Source: Ampullaceana balthica (Eukaryota > Mollusca > Gastropoda > Lymnaeidae). Taken from it: a stretch of DNA of 64,000 nucleotides. Under the pieces are notes generated by a model. It was not told the DNA's origin, searched no databases, and saw only the letters and a list, made by a program, of their open reading frames with translations. Below are positions 50,110-61,596 of this stretch, piece after piece. The stretch is from contig CALYLW010000161.1 of the NCBI GenBank assembly GCA_944989445.1, positions 591,001 through 655,000 of the forward strand. The letters run 5' to 3'. Position 1 is the stretch's first letter; each line of letters starts with the position of its first letter. Made by a program: the position numbers and the translations under genes.

Positions 50110-53100
50110 TTATGTCTTGGACGATTTTTGTGAAGTTTCTATATTCAAATAATTTTGTATAAGCCTGGATGCCTCTTTCAGGTCATCTAAAGATTTGACA
50201 AAGATATCTCTAGAGTCAGTTGATTTGTCAAAAAGACCCCAGTCCATAAGTCTGCATACTGCAAGCGTTTGAGAACCTGAAAAAGATATATACATGTATA
50301 TATATATCTGAGGTTCAGTGGAGGGTAGAAAAAAAAGGGGTGGGGGGTGGGGTAATAATACAATAATTGGCCTTCTGGTTGGTGTAATTTTAAGTTTAAC
50401 ATGAAGATAAAACATTCACAGGAGTGTGAAGTTTTAAACTTTGTTGAAAATTCTATGTCTACCTGTACCAGCTAGGCTGAAGTAGCAGAGTTTGCTGTGA
50501 CCAAACAAGTGAATAAATCAAGATTATTTAATGGCTGCTACTTATCACCTTTCCTTCAATAAATTCATTTTTTTTCTATAATTTTTTTAACTTCTATCAA
50601 AATTCAAAAGTAATGACCCAAGGTGAAAAATATTTCATTAATACAATTTGTAAATGTAAAAAAAAAGAAAGGTAAAATACAGTGACAAGTAACTAGGGCT
50701 GTACCGGATTCACATTTTTTTAATCCGGCCGGAGCGGGATTTGGCCGGATTTATGAAGTGAAATCCGGCCGGAGCTGGATTTGTAAAAATTGCAGGAGCC
50801 AAAATCCGATATACCCCTACAAATAACAAGATGGTACAGAATTTACTTACAAACACAACCTATTACACCCATTGCTACACTCGAGTAAAGCTTCAATTTT
50901 GATGGTTTTCTGTAGAAAAAAACTATCTGCATTAATTTGTTATAGTAAAAGTTATAATATTAATACTATCTAAAAATATAACATGATATGTTTAATCTAT
51001 TTATATGATGTGTTGATTTTTACATTTATGCAGTTTTTAATTAATAATAAATATCTAAATTCAGAAAAAACAACTCTAGAAATTTTAACACATAAAGTTG
51101 ATTAATCTTAATTTTCTATTTCAATTTTTAAAATCACATTACTAAATTAATTAATGAAATGAGAGAAAGTTTCTCTTCTTAAAATCTATTCTTTCACTAA
51201 AACTAAAAGTCTTGAAAATACATTATACACTATCATTTTGTTCACTGTTAATTTTCTGAGAAATAGAAAAACGCATTTACAAATACACAATGTAGTAAGA
51301 ATAGAAATCAATAGAAGAAAACAATTAACTTCTTCCAGGTTTTTAAAATTAAATAAACGTAAAAAAACAAGTTTTTGACCATAAATCCTTTATATAGGAG
51401 AGATATAATACGCACCACGACACTAGCACAAAAATTAACATGATACATAGAGATAAATAACATAATCTAACAATTCAATAATTACAGTATATGCAATCGA
51501 TCTGAAATTTTGATACATAGGTTTTATCATCGGAACGAATCTGCCTGCAAAATTTCAGCTCGCTAGCTTACGAGAAAGTGGTTTAAAAATCGATCCAAAG
51601 TTTTTTCGGCACTCAAGCAAGCAGACACCACGAGTTAATATAATATAAAGGATTTATTTAAAAATCCTATAAATGAATTAAACTCCAAATGAATCAATAA
51701 ATGCTTTATTTAAATTAGCATTGTAAGCTCTCCTGTAAAGTAGAGCAATTCTTACAAATCACTGTACAATGTATTCCCCTCAAAGCTTTTGTAATCAAGC
51801 TTTTCTAATGAACAGAATATCAAAGACCTCGTTATTTTTAATATATTATAAATAGCACTACAGGAGAACCCGGTTATGTCGACGGCCTAGGGGTTTGCCA
51901 AAAAGCGTCGAGATAACCGATGATCGAGTTAAACGAAAACCAATATGGCGACAAAATATTAACATGTGCTTGAAATTTCTTTATGTACATCATAAGGTTG
52001 TTAACCGGTTAGCCGTTACTTCGGTATAAGACTATTTTGCGGAGTTAATGTTTTGTTGGGTTACGGCGGAATACCAGAACCAATACGCAAGCGACCGTGA
52101 CATCAAAGCGAGCGACCGTGACATCAAAGCGAGCGACCATGACATCAAAGCGTTTTCTTACTATTCCGATCTATAAATAATATACACGTCATCACTATTA
52201 GTTTAGTTCGCCTACGGCTGAGGAAAGATTTTTTTTTAAATTTTACTTTGCTTAGTTATTGAGGCTCTGTACGAGAGCTAACACACAGTGCGCATATGAT
52301 ATGAACAACGGTAAAAGTCAAGGCCGTGACTGTTACTGTTACTATTTATATTACCAGAGTCATTTGAAAGACATAGCAAAGATACCGGGCAATTAATTGG
52401 TCCTCAAATTTGAGTTCTGTCTTTTAGTGACAGTTTTCCAGCAAGTTAAGGGCATTTGACATAAGATTACCACATTAATATCAAAACTGATATTTGCTTA
52501 AAAAATGTGTACGGCTAGTGAAAGATTTTTGTAATTATTTTTTTTTAACTCTCTTAGTTGACGAAGCATAGTACAAGAACTAACACACAGTGCGGCGATG
52601 TTAAAATGTGAACAAAGTTCAAGGCCGTGAGGAGTGTTACTATTCAGCGCAAGAAAGCTGAAAACAAGCGGGCTGTGACGTCACATGTTCTTTGAAGTCA
52701 CCATCAGACGGCACGAGGCGAAAATTTGATCATTGATACACTCTCTTAGTTGCTTTTTGCCCGTGATGTCATACAAAACAAGCCCCCCGCTTCCCTCTGC
52801 GCGTCTTCGTTCTCGATTCACGCCGCGTGAACCAGTTCTTCTACACACGCCCAGCACGGCCTAAATGGGGACAAAGCGTGTTTTCGCTGGCGTCGTTGGC
52901 TGGCTGTTAGTAATAATGCAATTGAACCCGCGAAAATATGGTAGTGAGATGGTGAAGTGACATCGCTAACATTTTCAAAAGCTGGCGATTGATCATGGGG
53001 ATCGAGCTAACCAACGTTAAGTGGCAAATTTGGCCCTCTTTTGTGCTCGAGGTATTAGGTTTCGGCGACATAAAAGAATCGACATAACCGATGAGAAAAT

Positions 53101-55667
53101 ACTAAGGCAAAGAGAGAATTTGGCGGTTCCAATCAAAAACGTCGACTTAATAGGGTTGGCGAGTTAACCGAGGTCTAGTTAAGTGGCTTCTACTGTTCTG
53201 TGAAATTTAATGGTGTTTGTTAGAAGTATTGAATAAGTTAATAGTTGAGCGCTTTTCCTAAAATGTCATAAAAGATCAATAAGATTAAATGGCACCTAAA
53301 AATAAATATTTAAAATCCAAAGTCTTTGAGTTGATTTTAACGGAATTCTCTTTCAACATTCATAAATAATGGTACATGTAGTTACAGTTAACTTACTTTT
53401 TCTTAAGTGATAATGAAACCCAAATTAATGTTGCACCTATCAAAGAGAGGTTGATGCTCTGAAACACTTTGAAGGCCATAGTGTCACCAACTTGCAGGGG
53501 TATAAACTGTTGCAAGGTCTTTTCCCATTCTGGAAGTTCTCTTTCAAGGTTACGCTGAATCATCTCCTTTTCTTTAATCTCCCTTTCATATTTTTGAAGC
53601 TCTTTGAGTGTTTCTTCATGATCAATCTCGTCTTGTTTAAATATTCCCCTTTCAATCATTTTCCTCTCATTTTTCATCGCCATATCCTGATATGGGTAAA
53701 AATCCTTTTTTTAAATAAAAAACTCACATAATTATTTTTTTTACAATGTTTCTTAGTATTTTGCACCATTATAATTATTACAATTTTATAGCTTGGTTTT
53801 TATTCCACCATAATATCTATATTACAGTTAAAGTTTAAAAATTTTAAAATTCATTCATGTTATGGAGATGTTTCTTATCTATTTCAGATGCTCCATTTCT
53901 ATACTGAAGATTATTGTGTTTCATTAATTAATAATTTGTTTGATGAAAATAAAGCTAACTTACTCTAAAAAAATCCAACTGGTAAATGCTTTCACGTTTG
54001 CTCTGAAATAAAGTTGTTAACATAGAGCTAAAATAAAATTTTAAGTACTGCATCCAAACTATAGGCCCTAAATTATATATTATAATTAAGCTTTTTCATT
54101 TGTTATATTAATTATTATAAACTAGACGCCCCGCGACATAGCATACGCCACAGACTTGCTCATTGAGAGTGCAAAGAAAGTGGAGAAAGAACGGACACAA
54201 ACTAAAGCACAAAGAAATCAAAACAATGCGAGTGAACGTCGGTTGGGGGGGGGACTGCCAACTCATTGTTGTTTTCGAGACATTTTCAGGCGAAATTCGG
54301 TACACCCCTAACTTCTATGAAGTCAGCTATAGTATAAAACGATAATCGGTTTAAAATCGGTGTTACATAACCGATAATCGGTTTTCCAAAAAAACAACAC
54401 CACGCAATTAACAACCCTAAATATGACTAACCCTCGCTAGGGTCGGCCAATCACAGTTTATGTTTAAAGGATGGTAGTAATAAATGGGAGGCGGGTAATA
54501 ACAACCTCAGTGTGCATGTCTTCACATTTACTCGCTATTTTTTATTTACTTAGTGCTGCTTTTTGTGTCTGTACTCAAACCCCCCCCCAACCGCTCTTTG
54601 CACTGTCTATGATGAGCAAGTCTGCTGCGTATGCTACGCTGCGGGTCTCTCCAGAGTTCCTTCTTTTCATTCACTCACAGTCGTTTGCCCAAACCCACCC
54701 CATTTTGACAACTGTGTCTTTCAGGAAGTCTTCACCCGTCACTAAATCATCAGCGGGTCAGCTAGTGTTGGCAATAAAGGGGTAAAAGAACTGGCACAAA
54801 CGGACATTTTTAAAAATTAAAAAAAACAACAATGTTTTCGCTGGGGCTTGAACCCAGGACCTTCCCCATATAAGGTGGACGTGATAACCAGTACACTACG
54901 AATCTCACATTATTCTGTGAAGGAACAATGCAAGTGAAACGCAAGGACCATTGTTGGTCTTGATACATTGGTTGACCCCAGCGAGGGTCATTCGTCATGC
55001 TCAGTTACACATACTTGCGTGGTGTCTCGCATGGTCCCACGAAGAGAATTATATATATAGATTATAAACTATTAATAGTATTAAAAGGTTTCCTTTAATC
55101 CTTAAACAAAAAATATTTAAATAACAAAATCGACTAATAACATTACATTATTGTCATATTTTAATTATTATAATTTAATATTTTAATAAATATACAAACT
55201 CAAACGCAGTGGTGTAGCTAAGAATTTGGGGGCAGGGGGCCATGGCCTCTTTGGGGGCCCTGCATACATGGTGGTGGCATAATATTTATGTAATGTAAAA
55301 AAAAATTCTAACACTCCTTAGGCGTTTCTGCCTTGCCTTAAGTGGGGGCTGCTTTCGAATTTGGACCCCCCCTCCCATGGCCCATAGCTATACCACTGCT
55401 CAAACTCCATATAAATTATAAAATATAACAAAATCTACTGCATCATATTCATGATTCATACTAATCATACTCGTATTATACATATTTTTTATGACTTACA
55501 TAACGCTGGACAACCTTTTCCCTGTAAGGTTCTGGTAAGTCCTTAAAGTATTCAAAAACTTTTGGGTCTATCACTACATTTTCATTGGCAGAGGAGTCCA
55601 ATTTAATTTCCTCTGATGCCTGGTTATCTCTTTTTCTAGTACCAAATAATATTTGCAACAATGACAT
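50110..55667 (-). CDS. Gene A: coiled-coil protein with two membrane segments, paralog of gene B
   Basis: Five exons: 55667-55500, 54002-53964, 53686-53397, 50909-50851, 50276-50110, all with AG/GT borders; 240 aa ending in TAA. The start is the first in-frame ATG (MSLLQILFG). Residues about 30-60 include the motif FKDLPEPYREKVVQRY. Residues about 66-125 are charged and heptad-like (coiled coil). FIPLQVGD is followed by a first hydrophobic helix (INLSLIGATLIWVSLSL), a KKKKP loop, a second hydrophobic stretch (SSVAMGVIGCVCSQTLAV), then CRLMDWGLF and a polar tail. I do not recognise the family by name. The region from FIPL to the GLF motif parallels gene B, including intron positions and phases (2 and 1). 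Gene A lacks the CxxC of gene B. Intron 3 holds a pogo-like element. A mitochondrial or ER membrane role is only a guess. Confidence 0.85.
50694..50825. repeat. CCGGATTT-rich repeat, copy 1
   Basis: TAGGGCTGTACCGGATTCAC followed by repeated AATCCGGCCGGAGC units. Related to 58740-59015. In gene A intron 4-side sequence, upstream of exon 4's donor. Confidence 0.55.
51384..51659. mobile_element. MITE with AAATCCTTTATAT ends
   Basis: ATAAATCCTTTATATA at the left and TATATAAAGGATTTAT at the right. Related partial copies at 62995-63130 and, in reverse, 63918-64000 (CTCGTGG...GATCGATTTTTAA). In gene A intron 3. Confidence 0.65.
51861..53195. mobile_element. pogo-like element (CAGTCGAAACCGGTTAAG family), copy 3
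   Basis: Starts CAGGAGAACCCGGTTATGTC after TA and ends GTGGCTTCTACTG. Contains a triple tandem of a 21-bp unit, CGAGCGACCGTGACATCAAAG (52083-52150). In gene A intron 3. Confidence 0.75.
54121..55061 (-). mobile_element. Helitron-like element, copy 2
   Basis: On the minus strand it starts TCTATATATATAATTCTC after A (55061) and ends GGGGCGTCTAGT before T (54121). It includes the tRNA-Val-like block (54834-54906) and, near 54560-54650, an internal piece resembling a Helitron end in the opposite orientation. In gene A intron 1. Confidence 0.78.
55207..55398. mobile_element. hAT-type MITE with CAGTGGTGTAGCTA ends
   Basis: Ends CAGTGGTGTAGCTA and TAGCTATACCACTG, duplication CTCAAACG/CTCAAACT (7 of 8). 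In gene A intron 1, about 100 bp from exon 1's donor. Confidence 0.82.
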
Positions 55668-56312
55668 CTTCTTAATCTTAGGACGCAATTCAATAGTCAA
55701 TCAATAGACAATAGTCGACAGTGACGAGTTACCAATTTGATTACACAATTACCAGTCAATAAAATTAATGAATTGATCAATTCAATGAGTCAATGTCAAT
55801 TAGTAGAATTAGATTAGAATGAAAGTATTTTCAAATGTGGTCGATTTCCTGGGAATTTCCATCTCCAGTACTAACCCAAATGTAGAATTGTAAGTAAAAG
55901 TCATATGATTTTGATTTTTTTATCAAATGTTTATTTACTTTTTAATTTTTAAAGCAAATTATTATCTTTTCTTTTCAGAAACAAGCCTTTTTAATCCAGT
56001 TTTTTAAAAAGTCACTTTCACATAGCTCATTTGCTTCATAAAAACACTGATATCTTCATAAGTCATAAGTGACCAAGTGTAAATAACGAAATGCATGATT
56101 GCGTCAAATAAAGTTTATAGAATTTCTAACATAATTAATCGGCGTAGCCACATTTCATCCAGTTTCAGTAAGAATAATTTCGATGAATGAAATTCCATAA
56201 AGCAAGCACATGACTTCACTGTCGAGTATGACATGTTAATTGTTAATACTGGGTATGATGATGACTGAATTAACTGGTGAGTACAGATTATTACTAAATA
56301 CAGATGATTACT

Positions 56313-56592
56313 CGCGGTGGTCGAGTGGCAGCGCGCTCGACTGGCGTACCAGTCACGGGTTCGAATCCATGTGAAGGCAAGGATTTTTTCCCGGGGCCTA
56401 GGGCGTCCCTGAGTCACCCAGCTCCGAATGGGTACCTAACACTAGTTAGGCGGCTGGGTTGTAATGCGTGGAACCCACAAAGTCGTGGTCGTGGCCTGTG
56501 AACGCAGCATCACTTGCCAACAGATCATATGTCATGGTCTGTGGACAAAATATCTTCTGCATAGAAGGAGCGTCTAGATAAGATAAGAAGAT
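56313..56592 (+). mobile_element. tRNA-derived SINE with GATAAG tail (type 2)
   Basis: Head with GTGGTCGAGTGGCAGCGCGC and GGTTCGAATCC, body as in 31399-31771 until CATCACTTGCCAA, then ATCTTCTGCATAGAAGGAGC plus GATAAGATAAG. That tail matches the 3' end of the CR1/L2 LINE at 11790 and 41948. Confidence 0.88.
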
Positions 56593-56745
56593 AAATAGTA
56601 AATACTATCTTATAAAAAAATATCTAAATGAAAGTAAATGTCCTTAAGCCTAAACTAAATAATAGTAATAGTAAATAAATAAATACTGTTTAACTATTTG
56701 AATTTGTTATTTACTATATACTAGAGTGAAGAATGCAAAAAATTG

Positions 56746-56977
56746 GGCAATCCTGCAGTTTTAGCACGTTTTATACGTCATATATTATTTTATTTCGCAG
56801 CAAATTTTAATTTTCTTGTGAGAACTTACGTTTTTGATTTAATAAAAGTGCTATAATAGCTAAAATATAACATATATTAATGAATTTTAATGCATTTAAT
56901 AAATTAAAACGTAAGTTCTCACAAGAAAATTAAAATTTGCTGCGAAATAATATACGTGCTAAGACTGCAGGATTACC
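56746..56977. mobile_element. hAT-like foldback element (GGTAATCCTGCAG ends), copy 3
   Basis: Short 232-bp form consisting almost only of the inverted arms. Ends GGCAATCCTGCAG and CTGCAGGATTACC, perfect 8-bp duplication AAAAATTG at 56738-56745 and 56978-56985. Confidence 0.9.
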
Positions 56978-58276
56978 AAAAATTGCTGTATCTGTACCAG
57001 CCCTAATTAAAAAAGCTTAATAAATGCTAAAAATTGGTTCAGTGATATCATTTAACAAAATATTAAAACAAGAGAAAAACTTTATCATAAAAAAATAAAA
57101 ATATAAAAAAACTTAATAATTTGTAGTTTGATGTTCAAAGTCTGATTGGGAAAACAACCCCTAATGGTCCTAACCCAATGAAGACAGGAGAGCATTCATT
57201 AAGTCTTGAAAGCTTCTTAGGGGCCGTCCATAAATGACGTCATGCGCCTAGGGAGGGGAGGGGGGTCAAGCATTTGTGACGATGGGGAGGGGGGTTAAAG
57301 AAATGTGATGTTACATAAAAAAATCGCACAACTTTAAATAAAATTTCCACTTAACTAATTAATTGCTTGCGATCTATTTAATGAAATGACGTTTTTAATA
57401 GCTTCCCGCGTGTTAGGATTAGACCTGTCAACGGGTACCCATTGCCGTGGAATTACCGGGGTAGTAAAATTGCGCTCGGGTACCCATGAAAATGTGACTG
57501 CAATGTTTATATTCTATAATAAAAACAGTGGCCAAACTGCGACTCTTATCTGTTCACATTACGGCTTGCCAAAATTTATCAAATAACATTTTTTCGTTTG
57601 AAATATTCAGTGTGAAATACTTTTAACACGAAAATGCTTGAGAAGTATCTGTCAAAGGGAAATAAAATAAAGTTCTGACAAACTACAAGGTATTTTGATA
57701 CAACTTTTTCCTCTGAACATGAAACAAAAATCTTAAAACACAAAAAAGATTTGGGTTCTTTGAATGAATCAATGACATGAAGTTAACTAGTCTTTGAAAA
57801 ACGCCAAAATTATTTGTTATCAGTTGAGACAAGGCAATGTTTTTTGTTGTTTTTTTAATCTACCCCCCCCCCTCTCATTCCTGCCTCCACTCCTATCGTG
57901 ACCATGTTAAAAAGTACCAAGTGTAAAAAAAAATTTAAGTATATTTTAGTTGTTCAAAGATATTTACTGTAATAACAAAAAATAAATGAATTTTTGTTTT
58001 GTTTTTTTAATCTGGACAAAACAAAGGGTTGAAAATAATTTGGGCTTGATTTAAAATTTAAAAGTTAAAGGCTAAAGGTTTGATTTGTAAATGGTTAGTG
58101 ATGTAATAACTGTTACCACTCGCCCACAGGTGTTGACACGCGTTGCTGAAAATTTTTTTTACAAACTCGCGCCATTTCCATTCCCTTGTGTTTCTTGTGT
58201 AAGCCTAGCAGAAAAACTTATTTTAATAAGACGTACATAATGTAAAGTTTATCAATTAAAAAGTTACTACCCCCGC

Positions 58277-58459
58277 CAATGTTCCCTTTAAGCTGCGTGG
58301 TTTCACGGCCGCGCAGTTCTCTGGCCGAGGCCGCGCTGCTGCTAAGAATAACCACGCAGAAAATTGTGTATTAATGCACAAAAAATGGATTCTGTGCAAC
58401 TTTGCTCGTGACTTTTTTTTACTTTGCACACGAACCAATGAAACTTAGAGGGCACATTG
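58277..58459. mobile_element. hAT-type MITE with CAATGTTCCC ends, copy 4
   Basis: Ends CAATGTTCCC and GGGCACATTG; the flanking duplication is eroded. Nested in the element at 57220-59316. Confidence 0.75.
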
Positions 58460-58739
58460 ACTGCCGTCTAGCGGACTGACTGAATGTTACGTCATTGTTG
58501 CTGACATTTTGTTTGAATGTTCAGTTGACTGTAGTTTTATTTTATGAGTAGGACGAATGCATTTACATCAGGAATAAAAGTTTGTAGAGCACAATAGTAT
58601 TTTTTGGAAGTATGCTGTTAGCTACTGTGTGAAATTAGGTGCATGGATGGTGGCTAGATTGCATTGTATAGCCGTCATGACCGAGTAAATTATGCGGCAT
58701 TTTGGACGAGTACCTGTGCAGCTTTTTTTCAACAATATT

Positions 58740-59015
58740 GACAGCCCTAGTTACAATTTGGGATTTACCGGATTTCGGCTCCGGCAAATCCGGAATCTGG
58801 CCATTTTTACAAATCCGGCTTCGGCTCCAGCAGAATTTCACTTCATAAATCCGGCTGGCCACTAGAGCCAAAAAAAATATATATATATAATGCTCTGGCA
58901 AATCTGGAATCCAGCCATTCTTACAAATCCGACTCCTGCTTCTGTCGGATTTCACTGCATAAATCTGTCCGAATCCGGCCGGATTTTAAAAATTTGAATC
59001 CTGTTCACCCCTAGT
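58740..59015. repeat. CCGGATTT-rich repeat, copy 2
   Basis: Alternating AAATCCGG and CCGGATTT units with GGCTCCGGC, closed by CACCCCTAGTTAC. Likely a MITE with repeated internal motifs; lies inside the larger element at 57220-59316. Confidence 0.55.
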
Positions 59016-59091
59016 TACGATATTAAATAGATTTCAGACTTACACTAAATACATATTTAAATGTTAAAAAAAGATATTAGAAGCATGCTTA

Positions 59092-59278
59092 TTTTAAATT
59101 AGAAAATACCGTTTTTAGGGGGAGGGTCAAAGCTTTGTGACGTAAAATAGGAGGGAGGTCTAAGTTTTTGTGATGAGGAGGTCCCCCACCTCCTCATCAC
59201 AAAAACTTAGACCTCCCTCCTATTTTACGTAACAAAGCTTTGACCCTCCCCCTAAAAACGGTATTTTCTAATTTAAAA
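59092..59278. repeat. Near-perfect palindrome, 91-nt arms
   Basis: 59092-59182 and 59188-59278 are inverse complements with one mismatch (G against T near 59138/59232) around a CCCCC loop. Lies just inside the right end of the element at 57220-59316. Confidence 0.95.
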
Positions 59279-59511
59279 GCGGCCAAAATCGTGTGACGTC
59301 ATTTATGGACGGCCCCTTTTGCTCTTTGCCTTTGGGATGCATTAAAAAAATTTTTTTAATTATTTCAGCATGATATTTGAAATTGGTATTTAAAATTAAT
59401 AACTGTACTTGAAATATTTTCTAAAATAGGTTCATTCAGTTTTCTAATCTTAATTTATTCTGTACATTGCAGATTATGAGCTAAACTGTATATGAAGAGT
59501 CTACTAATACT

Positions 59512-61596
59512 ATGAATAAGTTGCGTTCATGGCTATTTGGAAATGAGTCTTATAAATCAGTAAACTCCAATCATGAGTCATTGAACAAGGAAGTGAGTGT
59601 TCATCCCTCACTACAGAATTTAATTAAATTGTGCTTAAATATGGTCATTTGAAATCATTCATTTATAATTAATGAGCCTATGCAGAATGCAATGGCAATT
59701 AAATATATTTGCATACAATTCAGAAAAGATATGTAGGAAAAATATACAGCTCTTTGACTTTTTTAAAGTTTGATTAACAATAAAATTGTTAAAATTAGAT
59801 TTGAAACTTTATTTTAAATTCACATTTTATAATATCTCAAGGCCATTCAAGCATCTGCAAAAACAGAATCAATATTCCGAAAGACATTGTTAAGATTCAT
59901 TCCTCTTGCTCCTGGTGACTGTTTAGAATGCAAGTTAGTTGGCACTGGAGTGATGATGCTGAGTGGAATTATTGTTCTCGTATCGGCTATGCAGTCAAGA
60001 AATAGGTTTGTCTGATGGTTTTGTAAGCATTGGCATAATTAAATCTTGACCTTAGGAATGGTATTTATTTATCATATGGCAACTAAATTTATTCAACATA
60101 TAATATATTCCACAAATGTTTACAAATTTAAATTTAATGTAATGTAGTTTTATAGTTATTTATAGTTTTTATGGTATGGGTATTACAAATTATTTTTTTT
60201 AATGTTCTGTTTCTATGTTACTCTATTTATGGTAAAATACAAATAAACAAATTGTGTAATGAAAACAATAAATTTGAGCTTTTTTTATTAAACTAATACG
60301 GCAGTATACGTTTCGGCTAATGCCTTCATCATTACAATTAACATAAAGAACGTACTTACTTTAAGTAATACGTAAAATTATACTTGGTGTTGTATATAAT
60401 ACTAGATCGACCCACAGCGTAGCATACTCCGCAGAATCGCTCGTAGATAGTGCAAATAAACAGGGAAAAGAATGGGCACAAACTTCTCTCGGTACTCTTT
60501 ATGGAAGTTGTTTTGAAGCATTAATTCCTTTCCTTCTATATAGTATGTCTCATTTCGGTGCGCATAGTGCGGCAGGGTCGGGGAGTGCACATTACTACCT
60601 ATATACAGACTATATGTCTTGTTTACTCTAGTTTCTAGCAAATTATATATATATAAAAAACAGATAAACATTAAAAACAGTTTCAGTAACTTTTCTTGTA
60701 CCATTTATTGATGTCTCATGCAAGGTTTTGATGCAACTGACAAAGTTATTCAGGGCATCAGTATATTATTCCAGAAAATAAATAAATTTTATTTTTATAA
60801 ATTACGTTGTTGCTTTAAAGTTAAAGCTTTAGAAACAAAAATTATATTACTGTAGTAAATTTGATGTTTGTAATATTAACCATGGAATCTGTATAGGAAT
60901 GCCTGTACACACTGTAATGTATAAGATAAGTCTGTAAATATATAATTCACAATATAAAATGTGCTCTTTCATGCACATAAACATAGTGAAAACTATATAT
61001 ACATGTATACTTAAGTATTTATTACTGGTATTTATATAAAAGATGGGAAGGGTATGTGTGTAATTTTTTTTTCTCAATGCATATACTTGAATTTTTTTGA
61101 AAACTTTAGAACTAGATTTTTATCAATATCTAGTGATAAACTACTAAGAGATTTTTTTGTTTTTCAGTAATCCAAAAGTAGTTGTGAAAAATAGTGTTTT
61201 ATATTACTCATTGTGTGGAGGCTTGTTTCTTGGTAAGTATAGATTGATTTAAGCATGATAATTTATACTACAATATTCCTTATTCTTGATACATAAAAAT
61301 ATATTTCTTAGCTTAAAAATAGTTTGCTTTCAAATCTTACACATTTGTACAAATCCTTGTTCAGTAATCTTGATATGTGCTTAAAACTATTATTTAAAAA
61401 TGAATATAAAATCATAACGACTTTAATTTACCTTGCACTTGTTTTTTTTAATTAAGAGTTAAGAATAACAGAGAGCTAGAACTGTAGGAAAAAATTGATA
61501 AGCTACACAAAAATTGTTATATAATTTTTTTCAGGATTTGAATATACAGCATTTTGCCGATTATTAAACTGTGGTGTTTTCAAAAAGGAACCATGA
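59512..61596 (+). CDS. Gene B: small two-TM protein with CxxC, DMAC1/TMEM261-like (DUF4536)
   Basis: Four exons: 59512-59592, 59842-60005, 61168-61232, 61535-61596; 372 nt, 123 aa, TGA stop. The N-terminus MNKLRSWLFG resembles gene A's MSLLQILFG. FIPLAPGD is followed by CLECKLVG (a CxxC pair), a first helix (about residues 58-76), a loop NPKVVVKN, a second helix, then AFCRLLNCGVF and the end. Size, the CxxC just before the first helix and the two-helix layout recall DUF4536 proteins such as human DMAC1, a complex I distal-arm assembly factor. That link is from memory of the family and is tentative; the exon structure is firm. An in-frame-terminated upstream ATG lies at 59492. Intron 2 contains a Helitron-like end (60402-60490). 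A polyadenylation signal follows 41 bp after the stop. Confidence 0.85.
60402..60490 (-). mobile_element. Diverged Helitron-like 3' end
   Basis: CTAGATCGACCCACAGCGTAG then CATACTCCGCAGA and GTGCAAATAAACAGGGAAAA parallel the 3' end of the element at 54121. In gene B intron 2. The other end was not found. Confidence 0.5.

Follow-up and report, generated by a model that had tools for sequence, protein, structure and literature searches.

In a 64,000-nucleotide stretch of the genome of the gastropod Ampullaceana balthica (contig CALYLW010000161.1, positions 591,001 to 655,000; termed "the window" below, with all positions counted from its first letter), two small genes, A and B, lie head-to-head, and our analysis supports A being a paralog of B that arose by an old inverted duplication. 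Gene A is read from the minus strand, its start codon at 55667, and gene B from the plus strand, its start codon at 59512; the A stop ends at 50110 and the B stop at 61596. A previous examination of the bare nucleotide sequence (the sequence-only reading) had placed the pair within the same outer limits, facing away from each other, and the gene models agree on both counts. The gene structures, the homology between A and B, the absence of the CxxC motif from A, the neighbourhood in other snails and the old split were all computed here, while a mitochondrial location, the topology of the two proteins, the chemistry of B and the role of A are what we infer. The interpretation towards which we lean, with reserve, is that B would be a DMAC1/Dbi1-like redox chaperone and A a redox-inactive assembly chaperone or adaptor.

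Homology between A and B

The profile-profile comparison of the two-helix regions that had been proposed as a check was carried out with hhalign, and it is significant: A and B align over 86 columns with a probability of 98.2 and an E-value of 3.1e-14, the A row being that of an earlier, slightly wrong gene model. Pairwise BLASTP yields an alignment in 29 of the 30 A x B pairs, with single-comparison E-values between 1e-12 and 0.02, and both the failure and the worst E-value involve a truncated A model from Lymnaea. Identity over the shared region is 22-31% in these 30 pairs (24% for window A versus window B). When sequences were shuffled within residue classes, the real score was reached by none of 1000 shuffles for 10 of the 11 sequences and by 1 in 1000 for window A. 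Nor does A map to a different Pfam family, none of them scoring above its cut-off there.

Gene structure points the same way. As had been claimed, a phase-2 and a phase-1 intron are shared: they fall in identical alignment columns in all four MAFFT modes, and the best models obtained without phase constraint agree. Counted simply, the chance of two coincidences of this kind among 86 codons and 3 phases is near 3e-5. The phase-0 introns of A and B are not aligned.

In the tree, A and B form two groups with support 100/99, with Aplysia inside the A group and a long branch between A and B; thus the duplication is old. With a root placed between the two groups, the split would predate the common ancestor of Aplysia and Lymnaea. 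The weak spots of this tree are the Physella row, which is long, making its placement unsure, and the Lymnaea A row, which fills less than half of the columns; a 74-aa fragment (P0006) was left out of the alignment, the tree and the shuffle test. Together, the profile match, the two shared introns, the 100/99 split and the adjacency of the genes in other snails (see below) bear out the proposal of a paralog pair born of an old duplication. As for direction, A is suggested to be the derived copy by the match of B to Pfam family PF15055, against none in A, and by the short length of known members (118 aa in yeast, 116 aa in human), rather than by an outgroup tree.

The motifs said to be shared fared unevenly. 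Both window proteins contain the FIPL block, the (K/N)P loop, YS and A-x-CRL-x3-G-x-F, and the N-terminal LFG block, a short stretch, is a candidate shared motif. Across relatives, PL is present in 11 of 11 sequences and A-x-x-R-(L/F)-x3-G-x-F in all nine rows that reach it, both Lymnaea models stopping before this motif. The cysteine of CRL, seen in 2 of the 9 rows reaching it, and the GD after IPL, seen in 3 of 6 A rows, do not hold generally. A is also the faster-changing of the two: the window and Biomphalaria proteins are 46% identical in the case of A against 59% in that of B, and those of Bulinus and Biomphalaria 53% against 70%; the window-Lymnaea values differ little (78% and 81%).

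Gene structures and intervening repeats

Gene A has five coding exons, encodes 240 aa and has intron phases 0, 0, 2 and 1. Exon 1 (55500..55667, minus strand, as are all A exons) carries the start codon, a short N-terminal block and DPKVFEYFKDLPEPYREKVVQRY, shares residues with 5 relatives and ends at a phase-0 donor, GTAAGT. Exon 2 is a mini-exon of 39 nt (53964..54002), encoding SKRESIYQLDFFR and flanked by phase 0 on both sides. It is the one strong match in its intron (score 62, next best 16), lies between TTTCAG and GTAAGT, and corresponds to SKREG(I/L) at the same site in 5 of 5 relatives; the earlier gene description did not mention it and is corrected here. Exon 3 (53397..53686) encodes the charged region, WEK, FIPL, TMAF in place of CxxC, and helix 1, up to the phase-2 donor. 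Exon 4 (50851..50909) encodes the KP loop and the first half of helix 2, up to the phase-1 donor, and exon 5 (50110..50276) the second half of helix 2, AVCRLMDWGLF, the C-terminal tail and the stop.

Gene B encodes 123 aa on the plus strand, with intron phases 0, 2 and 1. Exon 1 (59512..59592) begins MNKLRSWLFG; its end is uncertain, with three possible donors. Exon 2 (59842..60005) encodes IPLAPGD, the CxxC motif (CLEC) and helix 1, includes the match to PF15055 and ends at the phase-2 donor. It is followed by exon 3 (61168..61232), with the NP loop, the first half of helix 2 and the phase-1 donor, and by exon 4 (61535..61596), with the end of helix 2, AFCRLLNCGVF and the stop.

To avoid circularity, splice combinations were enumerated without phase constraint and scored by profiles that contained no sequences other than relatives. 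In the case of A, where exon 1, the mini-exon and the beginning of exon 3 were held fixed, the top-scoring model out of 735 carries phases 2 and 1 (299.6 bits), followed by one with phases 0 and 1 (295.2 bits). For B, where set ranges around each junction were explored, the top three of 384 models share phases 0, 2 and 1 and differ solely in the exon 1 donor. The donor used here ranks third (164.4 bits, after 166.8 and 166.1) and was chosen because it has the consensus GTGAGT. An earlier A model of 226 aa (no mini-exon, one lysine short and one wrong residue at the last junction) served for the database searches and hhalign; the corrected 240-aa model was used for the shuffles, tree, motif counts, heptad test, intron columns, identities, genome search and a further Pfam search.

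Several repeats lie in and around the genes. A near-perfect palindrome at 59092-59278, with two 91-nt arms that are 99% complementary and 5 nt apart, ends about 230 nt before the B start codon and may be either a mobile element or an assembly fold-back. Between A and B, an inverted repeat at 56786-56954, whose 49-nt arms are 98% complementary and separated by 71 nt, has the look of a small mobile element. Inverted copies of a dispersed repeat lie in the last intron of A (50689-50793) and between the genes (58800-59018), and the region at about 56309-56600 resembles, by eye, a tRNA-derived short repeat. ARAGORN detected no tRNA in the window and an Rfam scan of the window gave 0 matches.

The pair in other snails

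A search of 5.8 billion proteins, in which candidates are picked by shared short words, found the nearest proteins to window A and B in Lymnaea stagnalis and further freshwater snails, and orthologs of both are present in other heterobranch snails. With A alone as query, 1 match was obtained among 369 candidates; with A and its Lymnaea relative, 5 among 2336, the relatives being those of Lymnaea, Bulinus, Biomphalaria, Aplysia and Physella. For B, 5 matches among 6 candidates were obtained (Lymnaea, Biomphalaria, Bulinus, Bradybaena and the 74-aa fragment). Both genes were found in three of the six named species, A only in Aplysia and Physella, and B only in Bradybaena; given the word filter of the search, the missing partner in these last three means little.

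The sequence-only reading had suggested looking for the two genes side by side elsewhere, and within heterobranch gastropods, the reach of the protein search, they are indeed neighbours. Locus tags are consecutive in Bulinus (Btru_003004 for B, Btru_003005 for A) and in Biomphalaria (BgiMline_008199 for B, BgiMline_008200 for A), and in all three species with both genes the longest contig reported for A equals in size that reported for B (1,225,840; 12,575,501; 56,995,939). The two genes have thus stayed adjacent in at least two species and probably in Lymnaea too, this evidence covering adjacency and not orientation. The 1.1-Gb genome itself contains a single clear copy of each: B has four matches at E <= 1e-3, all of them its own exons, and of the five matches to A at E <= 10 four are exons of A. 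The fifth (on contig C1472, 33% match, E 0.93) was taken as chance.

Both Lymnaea stagnalis database models look cut off at or just after the shared junctions, A at the phase-2 intron and B at the phase-1 intron, and the public annotation of the pair in that species looks incomplete at junctions shared with the window genes.

Relationship of B to DMAC1 and Dbi1

The top Pfam match of B is DMAC1_Dmo2 (PF15055; E 1.2e-4, 22.6 bits), and the same family ranks first in each of the 5 B relatives (E 2.7e-4 to 2e-3, 18.7-21.5 bits). From hydropathy and a low-confidence model of the Biomphalaria protein, B has two adjacent membrane helices, with a CxxC just before helix 1. A possible second DMAC1 in the genome (C443:1183703-1183786, 20.4 bits, E 0.81) is hydrophilic, has no CxxC and is probably a chance match. 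B is predicted to be the snail's DMAC1/Dbi1-like protein, and its activity is predicted likewise.

In the portion of PMC11850723 available to us, yeast Dbi1 (YDL157C, Dmo2) is described as a 118-aa inner-membrane protein with two helices, a CxxC preceding helix 1 and both termini measured to lie on the intermembrane-space side; it acts as a CxxC oxidoreductase that introduces disulfides into Tim17, Tim22 and Cox20, and remains on Tim17 as a chaperone. This role is restated in a 2026 review (PMC13239934, excerpt). For human DMAC1, the same portion of PMC11850723 states that the oxidoreductase function had not been analysed, and the accessible parts of PMC10910544 and PMC10752898 link the protein to complex I assembly, the latter giving a length of 116 aa and N-myristoylation.

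B resembles yeast Dbi1, as characterised in those passages of PMC11850723, in length (123 versus 118 aa), in its two central helices and in the CxxC just before helix 1; unlike Dbi1, it scores under the PF15055 cut-off and is known here from sequence. With human DMAC1 (TMEM261), B shares the Pfam family of its top match, human membership being taken from the family name, and a similar size (123 versus 116 aa). Unlike the human protein, reported as N-myristoylated in the available text of PMC10752898, window B starts Met-Asn and therefore has no second-position glycine. A resembles Dbi1 in the hairpin only, being about twice as long and without CxxC, and is further than B from human DMAC1 in size and cysteines.

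Divergence of A

Loss of the CxxC from A, as first noticed in the window, extends to its relatives. The column that reads CLEC in 5 of 5 B sequences (the motif is also present in fragment P0006) reads TMAF, IMAL, TVSF, TVTS, TMGW and TMTM in the six A sequences, none of which has a cysteine at either position. With E <= 10 as the limit, no PF15055 match was listed for the corrected A protein, its core, P0007-P0010 or the six A alignment rows, and, among other Pfam families, weak matches vary between relatives. With no profile match and no CxxC, A is not counted here as a member of PF15055.

In A, moreover, helix 1 is preceded by a charged region predicted to be partly helical, and helix 2 is followed by a tail of some 40 residues; the added domain keeps invariant motifs in 6 of 6 sequences found. 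The proposal that A gained a coiled coil and a tail holds for the tail. The coiled coil is unsupported, as a crude heptad test on 45 residues of each of 6 A sequences gave a power of 0.02-0.20 at period 3.5, never the top of six periods; the stretch is better called a charged, possibly helical region. A new function in A, also proposed at the outset, is plausible.

In 11 of 11 A and B sequences the two helices are joined by a loop of net positive charge, the Lymnaea A loop being only partly covered. Such a loop is expected if both ends face the intermembrane space, as in yeast Dbi1, and this topology, if it holds, would put the added parts of A in that compartment. No solved structure was found by sequence (best E 0.19 for B and 0.98 for A; 0 matches for the B profile).

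Discussion

We propose that B would be a small mitochondrial inner-membrane protein of two helices, with its CxxC just before helix 1, which probably oxidises and chaperones membrane proteins during their assembly, either Tim17/Tim22-type clients or parts of the complex I distal arm. A would derive from B or from the ancestor of B through the old inverted duplication, having retained the hairpin and two intron positions, given up both cysteines and gained the N-terminal charged domain and C-terminal tail. Its hairpin may contact a client or B, and its added parts may form a protein-binding surface, on the intermembrane-space side if the Dbi1 topology holds. A would most likely serve the same class of clients as B, or B itself, without redox activity.

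Several results weigh against this proposal. All six PF15055 scores in the B family (18.7-22.6 bits) lie below the curated cut-off of 27 bits, which is why we call B DMAC1/Dbi1-like and not a formal member. In a whole-genome search with PF15055, B is the best place with an E-value of only 0.17, and the same loose search gives a signal below cut-off in one of 14 control genomes, that of E. coli. The predicted models of Biomphalaria A and B each show two adjacent long helices at a mean pLDDT near 60, and fold searches with them gave no match at E <= 0.001, an uninformative result at such pLDDT. The added domain of A has no Pfam family at cut-off, and its role is hence a guess. Lastly, the search for A reached heterobranch gastropods only.

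This last point bears on the strongest of the alternatives, though one we think unlikely: that A is a very old DMAC1 paralog of many animals, the duplication being far older than snails and the pair having merely stayed together. The low A-B identity and the long branch between the groups speak for it, and the database search is limited to proteins with common short words; against it, the 5 matches among 2336 candidates are all from heterobranch snails, and neighbourhood and introns are still common to A and B.

That A is conserved in all six sequences found, its added domain having invariant motifs, would also suit a permanent accessory subunit of a respiratory complex, the ATP synthase or a translocase in snails, instead of an assembly factor. 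Among such subunits, small hairpin proteins bearing additional helices occur frequently. The nearest named relatives, reached through B and PF15055, are assembly factors, however, and no fold match to a complex subunit was obtained at E <= 0.001, weak evidence with so poor a model. We consider this quite unlikely. A role for A elsewhere than in mitochondria, away from the pathway of B, is more doubtful again: its added domain has no named relative, and yet the hairpin, the positive loop and the surrounding residues are kept. Finally, alignments of hydrophobic hairpins come easily, identity between window A and window B is no more than 24% and one window A shuffle in 1000 reaches the real score, but we reject a likeness due to chance, or to convergence of two membrane hairpins, as extremely improbable in view of the hhalign E-value, the 10 of 11 sequences that beat all 1000 shuffles and the two introns sharing column and phase, to which the adjacency of the genes in other snails can be added.

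The open-access literature, searched in part shallowly, yielded no account of any snail having a cysteine-free paralog of DMAC1/Dbi1, and nothing on DMAC1 in molluscs or on six snail gene tags; for TMEM261 together with snail, it returned lung-cancer work only.

Returning to a redox chaperone B and a redox-inactive A, a more specific and rather unlikely version of this proposal is a two-part system of heterobranch snails, in which B would be the redox-active half and the cysteine-free A would be dedicated to holding or docking, either by pairing with B or by receiving clients already oxidised. If true, evolution would have split the oxidoreductase and chaperone roles that the single yeast Dbi1 performs, and a hairpin-bearing, cysteine-free A beside a cysteine-bearing B could be a natural separation of the two. 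The question raised is whether A binds the clients of B without oxidising them, which could test whether such a factor has a job beyond making disulfide bonds. The snail database records for the relatives of A and B are named only hypothetical, uncharacterized or unnamed, and a likely function can now be attached to these genes.

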